Assembly: GCF_030548175.1 (NCBI RefSeq) | Contig: NZ_JAUORX010000003.1 | Coordinates: forward strand, 62,001-126,000 | Reading direction: 5' to 3' | From: Cognatishimia sp. 1_MG-2023 | GTDB lineage: Bacteria; Pseudomonadota; Alphaproteobacteria; Rhodobacterales; Rhodobacteraceae | DNA: 64,000 bases | Shown here: piece after piece, positions 44,554-48,052 of the stretch | How positions within the stretch are numbered: position 1 is the first letter of the stretch | How the letters are laid out: every line of letters starts with the position of its first letter | Notes under the pieces: model-generated | Seen by the model: the letters and a program-made list of their open reading frames with translations, nothing else | What the model was told of the DNA's origin: nothing | The model's database searches: none | Translations under genes and position numbers: made by a program

Positions 44554-44874
44554 ATGCGTTTATTTGGCTTAAAAAACTGTGATACCTGCCGTAAGGCATT
44601 GAAAGCATTGCAATCTGCAGAGCTGGTTGATGTGCGCGCCGATGGCGTTCCCGATGTCATAATGGCACAAGCGTTTGAGCAATTTGGCGACGCTTTGGTG
44701 AATAATCGCTCAACAACGTGGCGCCAATTAAGCGAAGAAGAGCGTAAAATAGCGCCTTTAGCGCTGTTGGCGCAGCACCCTACGCTGATGAAACGGCCCC
44801 TGATTGAGGCCGATGGCACCTTGTATTTGGGGTGGGGTAAGGATGTGCAGGCGGCCCTTGGCGTTGGGTCCTAG
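44554..44874 (+). CDS. ArsC-family reductase with CxxC (YffB/Spx-like)
   Basis: 106 residues. The thioredoxin-fold start reads RLFGLKNCDTCRKALKALQS with a CDTC active site, then NNRSTTWRQLSEEER and MKRPLIEADGTLYLGW. The CxxC separates it from the single-Cys ArsC at 13093. Members of this group are glutathione- or thioredoxin-dependent reductases of unknown substrate. It is divergent from csp. Confidence 0.8.
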   Translation: MRLFGLKNCDTCRKALKALQSAELVDVRADGVPDVIMAQAFEQFGDALVNNRSTTWRQLSEEERKIAPLALLAQHPTLMKRPLIEADGTLYLGWGKDVQAALGVGS

Positions 44875-44910: not shown

Positions 44911-45279
44911 ATGCGGAATGCAGCACTTGTACTTGGGATCATTGCCGGAATTGTCGGGATGATCGTTGGCTTTTTTGGCTGGGGGTACACCGCATTGATC
45001 GCGGAATATGGCGAACTGGACGGAATTGCCGAACAGGTCAATAATGTCGAGCTGGTACGGATCTCTGCGCTGGTGTCGCCTTTGTTGGCGATTGCCGGGG
45101 GCGCGATGGCGCGTGCACGTGCGTTATGGGGTGGGGTGTTATTGCTCGCCTCAGCGGCTGGAATGTATTTGGGATTTGGGTTCAACGTATTCACGATGTT
45201 CCCGATTGCCTTTGCGGGGCTCGCTGGTCTGCTGGCCGTAGCGGCGGGCAAACCAGACGAGCCTAAGGCGCATTTCTAA
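44911..45279 (+). CDS. Small integral membrane protein of unknown function
   Basis: 122 residues with about four hydrophobic segments (ALVLGIIAGIVGMIVGFFGW, LVSPLLAIAGGAMA, GGVLLLASAAGMYLGFG, FPIAFAGLAGLLAVAAG). There is no recognised family. It lies 36 bases after the ArsC-like gene and may be co-transcribed. Its TAA is directly abutted by the stop of the convergent doxX gene (TAATTA, zero gap). Confidence 0.7.
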   Translation: MRNAALVLGIIAGIVGMIVGFFGWGYTALIAEYGELDGIAEQVNNVELVRISALVSPLLAIAGGAMARARALWGGVLLLASAAGMYLGFGFNVFTMFPIAFAGLAGLLAVAAGKPDEPKAHF

Positions 45280-45837
45280 TTAGGCAATGGCCGCTTCGCG
45301 GCGGCTTGCCAAGATGCGGTCCACTGACAGTGGGCCTGCGCCTTTGATGACAAGAACCAGCAGCAAGAATACCCAGAACGCGCGTTGATCAAGGATATGC
45401 GCGTCTGACACCCGGTCAAACCATGCGCCGATGGTTTCGGCACCTGCGCCATGGCCGTAGATGTCTGTCAGCGATTGCACGACGACAAAGCCAATCATAC
45501 CAAGTGCAGCCAGACGAGTGGCAAGGCCCGCAAGGATCGCGAGTGGCAGAACGAATTCTGCAACAGTGCCAGCCCAGACAACAGCCCAGTGGAAGATGCC
45601 AAGCTGGCTGGTGTCATAGCTGACGGATTCCAGAACCTTTGGCCAGATTTGCGCGTAGGCACCGGTGCTGGGCACAAAGATACCAAAAATGCCGTCGCCC
45701 AATTTTGTTAGGCCGGAGTTCCAAAAGTACATGAACAGCACGGCAACAAAGATAAAGCGGGCCAGAGTTGGTAAAATCCAGTCCTGACGTTCAAGCCTGT
45801 CAAAGACCGCGTTGTGGAGCGAAATCAAAGTGTTCAT
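45280..45837 (-). CDS. bufD: DoxX-family membrane protein, BufD-like
   Basis: 185 residues. DoxX features include LARFIFVAVLFMYFWNSGLT, GTVAEFVLPLAILAGLATRL, GFVVVQSLTDIYGHG and LLLVLVIKGAGPLSVDRIL; four membrane segments. It is the last gene of bufABCD, coupled to bufC by ATGA. Proteins of this type accompany DUF692/DUF2063 pairs in bufferin operons. Redox partner or membrane anchor roles are proposed for the family, not visible here. Confidence 0.82.
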   Translation of the reverse strand: MNTLISLHNAVFDRLERQDWILPTLARFIFVAVLFMYFWNSGLTKLGDGIFGIFVPSTGAYAQIWPKVLESVSYDTSQLGIFHWAVVWAGTVAEFVLPLAILAGLATRLAALGMIGFVVVQSLTDIYGHGAGAETIGAWFDRVSDAHILDQRAFWVFLLLVLVIKGAGPLSVDRILASRREAAIA

Positions 45838-46595
45838 TGCTGTTCCTCATATGTGATCTTGGTGATGGCTGCGTTTGACAGCAATAGACCCAATAGGGCC
45901 CCAAGATCGAAGTCTTCTGCTATTTCAGTGGCGCGTTCTGCGGCGTCGCCAAGGGTGGCCCCTTGGATCATAGCGGTTAAAAATGCCGCGCCGCCGGGTG
46001 GCAGTGGGTGGGGTTCTGGATCAAACTCTGCACGCAAGACGATAACATCCTGGGCGATGGCCTGTGGTTTTGGTGCGCCTTCGATCATGTTGTAAGCCCA
46101 CAAATCGTAGATCGGCCATTGCGACGGTACAATCTCCATCGCTGGCGCAAAGGTAAATGTGACCGCTGGCAGGCGCTCTGGTGCGATTTGCGCCAAGGCG
46201 TCCGGTGCAATCGGAGTGGCGTCAGCGGCGTGATACGCGCGGCGCAGGGCCAGTTCGATTTCGGCAACATCGCCTAGGTAGGCGAGGTGTTTGATGGGTT
46301 CAAATGTGCGCAGGAAGTTCGGAAAGTCCGCGCCGTAGTGCATCATGACCGGCGCTTGTGGCGGTGATTGACGCAGGTAAATCCCGGCGATGGGTTTGAA
46401 ATTGGCATCGCCCAAAAGCTTGGCAATGACGGGGAAACCGGTTTCCAAAGACTCCGTCAGCGAAACGGCGACATTGTTGCGGTACACACTAAAGCGGCGG
46501 CCGGCAGGGTTGCCTTGGCCGTCCAGCAGACCTTCGGGGACGTCAATTGCGGCGTCCATCATCGCCGCGCGGAATACTGTCTGGCTGATGGTCAT
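45834..46595 (-). CDS. bufC: DUF2063 partner protein of MNIO enzyme, BufC-like
   Basis: 253 residues from ATG 46595, coupled to bufB by ATGA. The N-terminal domain RFSVYRNNVAVSLTESLETG, FPVIAKLLGDANFKPIA is the DUF2063 (putative DNA-binding) fold, and a second domain follows (QWPIYDLWAYNMIEGAPKP, FLTAMIQGATLGDAAE). In MNIO systems this partner recognises the precursor peptide and presents it to the DUF692 enzyme. Overlaps on both sides point to stoichiometric expression. Confidence 0.85.
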   Translation of the reverse strand: MTISQTVFRAAMMDAAIDVPEGLLDGQGNPAGRRFSVYRNNVAVSLTESLETGFPVIAKLLGDANFKPIAGIYLRQSPPQAPVMMHYGADFPNFLRTFEPIKHLAYLGDVAEIELALRRAYHAADATPIAPDALAQIAPERLPAVTFTFAPAMEIVPSQWPIYDLWAYNMIEGAPKPQAIAQDVIVLRAEFDPEPHPLPPGGAAFLTAMIQGATLGDAAERATEIAEDFDLGALLGLLLSNAAITKITYEEQQ

Positions 46596-47452
46596 GCGGC
46601 AGGTACTTTGGTTAGGGCTGTGGCTGCGCGTTGGGCTTCGTTGGCCAAAACGGGCCATTCGGGCACATCGGTGTCCCATTCGATCAAAATGGGGCGTGGC
46701 CCAGATAATTCGAGGGTGTGATCAAGCAGGGCCCAAACTGGATCGACGATGGCTGCACCATGGCTGTCGATGAGCAGGGGTTTACCGTGGTCATCCTCGT
46801 CCTCATCATGGCCGCCAAGGTGGATTTCTCCAACTTTATCAAGAGGATATTCCGCGATGTAGTCGCGCGGATCGTATTCAAGATTGGTGGCAGAGACAAA
46901 GACGTTGTTCACATCCAGCAAAAGGCCACAGCCGGAACGGTTTGCCACTTCGCGTAGGAAGTCAGGCTCGGACCAGGTGCTTTCGGCAAAAGCCAGATAG
47001 CTGGATGGGTTTTCCAGCATCATCTGACGTCCGATGGTGTTTTGCAGTTGATCAATGTGATCTGCTACCCGTGTGAGTGTCGCTTTGGTGTAAGGCAAAG
47101 GTAGCAGATCGTTAAAATAGCTGCCGTCATGGGTCGACCAGGCGAGGTGTTCTGAGAACACAGTGGGGTTCAACCAACTGACGAGGTGCTTCAGGCGTGC
47201 AAGGTGTTCTGGATCAAGCGGCGCTTCGCCACCGATCGACAGGCCAACGCCATGCACGGAAATTGGGAATTTTTCAGTAAGGTGACGCAGTTGCGCCAAG
47301 GGGCGTCCGCCCATGCCCATATAGTTTTCTGCGTGAATTTCGAGCCAGCCAACCGGATCGGCGTTTTCCATAATCTCTGCAAAGTGCTGTGGCTTGTAGC
47401 CAACACCGGGCTTGCAGGGCAGAGCAGGGAAATGTGACGGCGCATCAAGCAT
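46592..47452 (-). CDS. bufB: DUF692 multinuclear iron-dependent oxidase, BufB-like
   Basis: 286 residues from ATG 47452 (an in-frame TTG one codon earlier is ignored). The TIM-barrel metal ligands are visible in GVGYKPQHFAEIM, WLEIHAENYMG, ISVHGVGLSIGG, FSEHLAWSTHDG, LENPSSYLAF, GLLLDVNNVFVSA, GEIHLGGHDEDED and LIDSHGAAIVDPVW. Such enzymes oxidise precursor cysteines; in bufferins they form thiooxazole-type heterocycles. It begins 61 bases after the precursor gene stop, beyond a stem-loop. Confidence 0.9.
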   Translation of the reverse strand: MLDAPSHFPALPCKPGVGYKPQHFAEIMENADPVGWLEIHAENYMGMGGRPLAQLRHLTEKFPISVHGVGLSIGGEAPLDPEHLARLKHLVSWLNPTVFSEHLAWSTHDGSYFNDLLPLPYTKATLTRVADHIDQLQNTIGRQMMLENPSSYLAFAESTWSEPDFLREVANRSGCGLLLDVNNVFVSATNLEYDPRDYIAEYPLDKVGEIHLGGHDEDEDDHGKPLLIDSHGAAIVDPVWALLDHTLELSGPRPILIEWDTDVPEWPVLANEAQRAATALTKVPAA

Positions 47453-47479
47453 CAAAGGGGCCTTTGGTTATTGTAGAGT

Positions 47480-47504
47480 GTCCCGCCCGAAAGACGGGCG
47501 GGAC
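47480..47504 (-). promoter_or_regulatory. Intercistronic stem-loop between precursor and enzyme genes
   Basis: GTCCCGCCCG, a 5-base loop and CGGGCGGGAC form a perfect 10-bp stem nine bases after the bufA stop. No U run follows in the transcribed direction, so partial termination or mRNA end protection is likely, giving more precursor than enzyme. Confidence 0.6.
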
Positions 47505-47513
47505 GTAGATAAT

Positions 47514-47822
47514 TTATGCTGGCAGGTCGCGTGTTAGCTCTTCCAAAGAACCCATGCGTGCTTTGCCGTCTGCCATTGCTGGCAGTTCGATTGTTGTGCA
47601 TGTGCCTGCGTCAACCAGTGTCCATGCGTTGCCTTGGTAGTCAACCTTGGAAGTACCGGCGCATGTTGTGCCTGGGCCAGCTGCGCAGTCGTTTTTACCT
47701 GCAAGAGATACACCGAAGCATTTTTCTTTGCCGTCCATTGCGGATGCGGTGTGAGCTGTCACTGAAGTCAAAGCTGCTGCAACAGAAGCGGCGACGGCGA
47801 GAGATTTTACGGTTTTCGACAT
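47514..47822 (-). CDS. bufA: DUF2282 bufferin-type precursor peptide
   Basis: 102 residues. A Sec signal peptide spans residues 1 to about 28 ([15 protein letters not shown]). The mature part has four cysteines at 35, 46, 54 and 75 in the pattern [36 protein letters not shown], which is the DUF2282 signature. In bufferins the two middle cysteines are modified by the MNIO enzyme and the product binds copper in the periplasm. It is first in bufABCD. The start has AGGGA nine bases upstream. Confidence 0.88.
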
Positions 47823-47903
47823 TTTATCTATCCCTAAAAAGGTTCAAGTGTTGCCACGAAATGTGGCGTACCTGCACTCTAGCCGGGAGTGGTGATAAAC
47901 CTC

Positions 47904-47938
47904 CAATAACGCATTCGTGGGTCACGCGCGCGTTATTG
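47904..47938. promoter_or_regulatory. Inverted repeat upstream of bufA
   Basis: CAATAACGC (47904-47912) and GCGTTATTG (47930-47938) form a perfect 9-bp inverted repeat with a 17-base spacer, about 80-115 bases before the bufA start. It is a candidate operator for a copper- or stress-responsive regulator. A smaller GCCAC/GTGGC stem lies at 47853-47867. Confidence 0.45.
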
Positions 47939-47981
47939 AATGTCAAATTCTAAATGCGTTATGTCCCTATAAAATAAGAAA

Positions 47982-48003
47982 AACCGGACCCTAAGGCCCG
48001 GTT
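47982..48003 (-). terminator. Rho-independent terminator of thrS
   Basis: On the minus strand AACCGGGCC, a 4-base loop and GGTCCGGTT (one mismatch) are followed by TTTCTTATTTT. It is about 50 bases past the thrS stop. Confidence 0.8.
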
Positions 48004-48052
48004 CTATCAGCGGATTTTGGCCGCCAATTGTTACAAAATTGGTTAACTTGGA

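Follow-up and report, generated by a model that had tools for sequence, protein, structure and literature searches.

A conserved double operator suggests CenK-CenR control of a roseobacter bufferin operon in place of sigmaF/NrsF

A complete Buf1-type operon

Within the window (the whole stretch of 64,000 nucleotides that was analysed), four open reading frames run along the minus strand from 47822 to 45280, and all four lie at the coordinates at which an earlier note, made from the letters alone, had placed a bufABCD operon (Table 1). The ATGA overlaps described there are likewise present, at 46592-46595 between bufB and bufC and at 45834-45837 between bufC and bufD; because relatives and these overlaps support both, ATG starts were adopted for bufB, which the list of open reading frames begins one TTG codon earlier, and for bufC, which that list begins further upstream.

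Table 1. Positions of genes and control elements in the window.
Feature	Position	Strand	Basis
bufA: Buf1 (DUF2282) bufferin precursor, 102 aa	47514-47822	minus	PF10048
bufB: MNIO (DUF692) bufferin maturase, 286 aa	46592-47452	minus	NF050167
bufC: DUF2063 partner (PME type 1) with C-terminal RRE-like region, 253 aa	45834-46595	minus	PF09836, fold match
bufD: DoxX-family membrane protein, 185 aa	45280-45837	minus	PF07681
Intercistronic hairpin, 10-bp G+C-rich stem	47480-47504	minus	Folding energy, kept in relatives
31-bp double operator TAACGCGCGCGTGACCCACGAATGCGTTATT	47905-47935	minus	Conserved in relatives, matches CenR sites
Putative -10 element TAGAGT, 25 nt after the operator	47876-47881	minus	TANNNT spacing in relatives
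Terminator-like stem-loop with T-rich tail, after thrS	47980-48005	minus	Separates bufA from upstream thrS

A precursor, an MNIO enzyme, a DUF2063 partner and a DoxX protein form the published core of Buf1 operons (PMC12452194). BufA scores 85.5 bits against PF10048 (cut-off 22.4), BufB 350 bits against PF05114 and 373.9 bits against the NCBIfam model NF050167 (MNIO_BufB; cut-off 310), BufC 77.7 bits against PF09836 (cut-off 27.2), and BufD 29.4 bits against the DoxX family PF07681 (cut-off 23.6); bufA and bufB are the only DUF2282 and MNIO genes of their genome. The reading of the locus as a bufferin operon, put forward in the earlier note, gains support from the published gene set, the NCBIfam score of BufB and the fold of BufC, and membership in the Buf1 type is well supported by the family scores, the metal-site residues of BufB and, again, the BufC fold. 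We are therefore highly confident that the locus is a complete Buf1-type bufferin operon, carried by a marine member of the Rhodobacteraceae closely related to Cognatishimia and Shimia. As such, bufABCD is an ordinary copy of an operon type that is already described and common in the family.

A comparison of DUF2282 sequences, suggested by the earlier note and run here on the family, found a BufA relative in 143 of 199 genomes (each from a different genus, the genome counts not being phylogenetically independent), and each of the 126 relatives examined contains exactly four cysteines. The nearest named relatives of BufB belong to Cognatishimia, Shimia and Ruegeria. About 80 relatives share both the gene order of bufABCD and its flanks. 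In 79 of 80 named related loci the upstream neighbour is thrS, the exception being L104, which begins where its contig ends; on the downstream side, most loci have a small membrane-protein gene and an ArsC-like gene in common. Because these neighbours recur on both sides, the position of the operon appears stable, and the operon was probably inherited vertically.

The two genes that converge on bufD in the window, a small DUF4064-like membrane-protein gene (below the family cut-off; 44911-45279, plus strand) and an ArsC/Spx-like gene (44554-44874, plus strand), occupy the same position in most related loci. Shimia species frequently have two bufA genes in tandem, the second also encoding exactly four cysteines; such loci, recognised in the interval between thrS and bufB, are L038, L040-L046, L048, L049, L060, L061, L071, L085, L096 and L109. 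Some Shimia carry an inserted gene between thrS and bufA that seems to encode a Hint-type domain protein (L035:3425-4447; about 3650-4450 in L037, apparently degraded); these insertions (L035, L037) do not look like a regulator and were set aside as such.

Separating bufA from bufB is a hairpin with a computed energy of -25.6 kcal/mol (z -5.9 against dinucleotide shuffles). Measured against mononucleotide shuffles, this interval folds at z < -2 in 54 of 72 loci, whose sequences differ from one another, and those hairpins of relatives that were inspected mostly have stems of 9-15 bp. No T tract follows the hairpin in the window. Its role is likely to be RNA stabilisation or partial termination, either of which would leave more precursor than enzyme.

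Predicted product and maturation proteins

BufA divides into a signal-peptide-like segment (residues 1-28) and a mature part (29-102). Judged by eye, its N-terminus resembles a Sec signal, with a charged start, a hydrophobic core and A-S-A before residue 29, and A28 is conserved in 123 of 127 sequences. The cysteines stand at 35, 46, 54 and 75, as the earlier note had read them, and are invariant over 127 aligned sequences; a 15-residue stretch is almost invariant among relatives. That note had not settled how many cysteines are modified, or which, a view that proves too cautious given this invariance and the assignments available in the Buf1 literature, in which the two central cysteines are modified and the outer two are joined by a disulphide (PMC12452194). 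From these family roles it follows that Cys46 and Cys54 are predicted to be modified and Cys35 and Cys75 to be bridged, with a mass change of about -10 Da. The bufferin modification is a 5-thiooxazole, which removes four hydrogens per cysteine and absorbs near 305 nm (PMC13097082). For residues 29-102 we compute 7554.47 Da for the modified and 7564.55 Da for the unmodified form, and a 16-residue tryptic peptide of BufA is expected to lose 8.06 Da if modified. By analogy with the family, BufA would be modified and would bind copper in its own species as well. An AlphaFold model of BufA (44 relatives) reached a pLDDT of 55 and was discarded as unusable for disulphide geometry; a profile search of PDB sequences with BufA gave no match.

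The MNIO metal-site residues are kept in BufB, as judged from an alignment with TglH and 3bww in which H67, H102, E147, D180, H211, D229, H231 and E258 are identical to the aligned residues of TglH. By motif position, D260 of the BufB IEWD motif corresponds to the catalytic base Asp249 of FonB, whereas Lys20-Pro21 and Thr261 stand where FonB has Arg15-Arg16 and Phe250. The predicted model of BufC (pLDDT 92.9) has as its top Foldseek matches TglHI structures (8hci_A, 8hi7_A) and NGO1945 (3dee), with nothing besides TglI and NGO1945 at E < 0.001; a profile search of PDB sequences returned no match for BufC, which is thus placed by fold search only. Because this fold matches that of MNIO partners, the old proposal, made for NGO1945, that DUF2063 proteins act as DNA-binding autoregulators (PMC2954202) was dropped.

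The operon resembles several known systems. The bufferin 1 operon of Caulobacter (CC3254-CC3257 / CCNA_03363-03366) has the same order of DUF2282, DUF692, DUF2063 and DoxX genes, and its precursor likewise has four cysteines, together with a signal peptide of which BufA carries a putative counterpart. The gigPABT operon of Cupriavidus metallidurans and the GIG operon of Legionella pneumophila comprise the same families and respond to copper and gold; their similarity to bufABCD in sequence is only distant, and regulation differs, with gigPABT lying next to the ECF gene rpoQ and an anti-sigma gene. Captophorins (oxazolin hvfABC, fontiphorin, gonophorin) share with the present system an MNIO enzyme and a DUF2063-RRE partner, and they install on cysteine the 5-thiooxazole that is predicted for BufA, but their precursors carry EGKCG repeats (seven modified cysteines in fontiphorin), where two central modified cysteines and a disulphide pair are expected for BufA.

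A double operator upstream of bufA

The operator just upstream of bufA has the form TNAC-N6-GTGA-NN-CAC-N6-GTGA-NT, that is, two NNAC-N6-GT(G/T)A boxes with a period of 15 bp. Among 109 bufA upstream regions, 107 match the pattern ACG-N4-CGTGA-NN-CACG-N4-CGTGA at no fewer than 12 of its 17 fixed positions, a level that shuffled sequences reach in 10 of 545 trials. When the 199 family genomes were searched with at most two mismatches, 77 of 102 sites fell 64-114 bp before a bufA gene; the reversed pattern, used as a control, was found three times in total. The site at bufA is the only double-operator match in its own genome, and because a class-wide search was nearly empty, returning this site and one weak match elsewhere, the operator says little beyond the family. 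A TANNNT element follows the operator after 24 or 25 nt in 84 of 107 relatives (25 here), a spacing that would place the end of the operator just upstream of -35, in the position of an activator. A scan for the sigma70 consensus did not flag the bufA promoter, as expected if a good -35 is absent.

The presence of this operator is related to that of the anti-sigma factor NrsF. A search of the own genome for NrsF (PF06532) gave no match, the Caulobacter control being positive; across the family, NrsF scores above the cut-off in 28 of 199 genomes and is often encoded beside bufA. Of the 141 genomes in which bufA is clear, 22 have NrsF and 119 do not; the double operator occurs in 1 of the former and 76 of the latter, such that NrsF and the operator are nearly exclusive (Fisher p 1e-7, a value that is indicative because the genomes are related). 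Of 20 NrsF genomes examined, 17 have GTAACC-N15-17-CGAA before bufA with at most two mismatches; the telling part is the 12 in which the sigmaF-type promoter has one mismatch, since two mismatches are attained by 30% of shuffled sequences and one by 1%. Most of the 20 also have one TCAC-N6-GTGA-like box, which lies a few bases beyond the sigmaF promoter on its upstream side, and for this reason both promoter forms may descend from a promoter that already held a CenR box. Forty bufA genomes have neither feature at the strict cut-off, and in 18 of them the double element is present with 3-4 mismatches, a match not reached in 200 shuffle trials. In the open-licence literature we found no description of the bufA operator or of its near-exclusivity with NrsF.

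CenR as the candidate regulator

The CenR of Rhodobacter sphaeroides recognises TGA-N8-TGA immediately ahead of -35 (PMC9275681), and a repeat linked to CenR in S. meliloti, TCAC-N6-GTGA (PMC9561847), has the same form as the bufA boxes. The boxes fit both descriptions and would hold the same place relative to -35; two published R. sphaeroides sites, TGACGCGGGCGTGAA and ACACGAGCGCGTGAG, which belong to an L,D-transpeptidase gene and a response-regulator gene respectively (PMC9275681), resemble the two boxes of the operator. The bufA operator differs from that regulon in its tandem of two boxes at 15 bp and in its target, a metallophore operon that is not listed there; the R. sphaeroides target table includes no bufferin gene (PMC9275681), and CenR is not described as a copper regulator in the papers that we found.

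A CenR matrix built only from 31 published R. sphaeroides sites (PMC9275681) was applied to the 200 bp upstream of bufA in relatives, where the best score has a median of 12.7 and is at least 10.4 in 98% of cases; by comparison, the regions before thrS, bufB, bufD and the two flanking genes of those loci have medians of 5.1-7.5, with no more than 12% attaining 10.4. Box 1 has a median score of 12.5, as against 10.5 for the training sites of the matrix. In the window, box 1, which is palindromic, scores 10.0 bits (12.6 bits in the reverse reading) and is the second-best site of the whole 64 kb, and the second box is a weak match of 6.2 bits. The top match in the window, at 703, lies inside a gene and was taken as chance.

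Two of the double sites away from bufA point in the same direction. One lies directly upstream of an OmpR-type (cenR-type) regulator gene, which, from its likeness and its gene neighbourhood, we take to be cenR. A second, a strong site in a genome without bufA (L145:4315-4345; G113:C7:58314-58344), stands 65-70 bp before a YkuD L,D-transpeptidase gene. Genes for a cenR-type response regulator and for YkuD L,D-transpeptidases are among the kinds of CenR target reported in R. sphaeroides (PMC9275681). The own genome encodes a cenR-type ortholog (G000:C3:29622-30299) that is 91% identical to the regulator beside the first of these sites (in L146), has Response_reg and Trans_reg_C domains and is preceded by a matching box, ACACGACGGCGTGAA; in all, the genome encodes about eight full-length regulators of the OmpR type, this putative CenR among them. 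On these sequence comparisons, CenR of the CenK-CenR envelope-stress system is, with moderate confidence, the regulator of bufABCD.

Weighing the alternatives

A paralogue of CenR is the main rival for ownership of the operator. That the bufferin operon is real but its double operator belongs to another regulator, be it an OmpR-family paralogue (ChvI-like, for example) or a dedicated metal sensor encoded elsewhere, we hold to be possible rather than probable. Several OmpR-type regulators are indeed present in the genome, S. meliloti has similar inverted repeats at promoters that include chvI, and the double site occurs almost exclusively at bufA, in contrast to the dozens of CenR targets in R. 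sphaeroides, where cenR is an essential gene. What is confined to bufA, however, is the double arrangement and not the single box; box 1 fits the CenR matrix as well as the sites used to train it; and two of the double sites elsewhere fall at the cenR-type and L,D-transpeptidase genes described above. Control through an ECF sigma factor paired with the anti-sigma factor NrsF, both encoded outside the locus, has a precedent in Caulobacter, where the bufferin operons depend on sigmaF and on the promoter GTAACC-N16-CGAA, and the sigmaF-type promoter at bufA in 17 of 20 NrsF-bearing family members extends it to closer kin; but it is very unlikely here, given that the own genome is without NrsF, that NrsF-less genomes show the double operator instead, and that the own bufA upstream region has, beside its CenR-type double operator, a TANNNT -10 element at the conserved spacing. 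On balance we favour, if with some reserve, the reading that the roseobacter bufferin operon is under the control of CenK-CenR through a double CenR operator, rather than of the ECF pair sigmaF/NrsF.

Two further alternatives concern the genes and their product. A chance juxtaposition of four unrelated small genes can practically be dismissed: synteny, with gene order kept over some 80 loci, already refutes it, and the genes are coupled by ATGA and belong to families that all score above their cut-offs. It is also rather unlikely, though with more in its favour, that the product mainly counters another stress (oxidative, chromate, cadmium or gold), copper sequestration being secondary. Homologous operons respond to chromate, cadmium and gold, CenR targets include the periplasmic redox and protein-quality genes msrA and dsbC, and DoxX proteins have been linked to oxidative or sulphur stress; against this, a sigF mutant of Caulobacter is copper-sensitive, and the literature on the family describes bufferins as copper chelators.

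Proposed mechanism and significance

We propose that transcription would start from a sigma70-like promoter under positive control of a response regulator of the OmpR family, with CenR the most likely candidate, which would occupy the double operator next to -35 on its upstream side; the hairpin that follows bufA would probably shift the balance towards precursor and away from enzyme. BufA would be synthesised with its predicted Sec signal peptide and presented by BufC to BufB, an iron-dependent MNIO that, in the cytoplasm, would turn Cys46 and Cys54 into 5-thiooxazoles, each through a four-electron oxidation. Modified BufA would then be exported, the Cys35-Cys75 disulphide would form, and the 74-residue product would bind excess copper in the periplasm, with BufD in a presumed accessory role at the membrane. 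The chemistry, the roles of the cysteines and the copper function in this scheme are carried over from the family literature.

Bufferins are widespread as copper-sequestering peptides of bacteria, and the route of their induction is known in few species. The interest of the present case lies in the regulatory rewiring that we infer, the operon itself being ordinary: if the rewiring is true, copper buffering would be part of the cell-envelope stress response, a general response to envelope damage, in roseobacters, which are abundant marine bacteria. The conserved operator offers one small site at which CenK-CenR control can be tested.

A separate element occurs upstream of bufA in a Shimia-type group of loci (L038, L040, L041, L044-L046, L048, L049, L061, L071, L085 and L096): the near-palindrome CCTTCCAGCGCTGGAA, which is found besides the CenR-like element and resembles the operators of MerR-family (CueR-like) regulators. 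It is present in 12 of 109 bufA upstream regions, at a shuffle rate of 0.0009.
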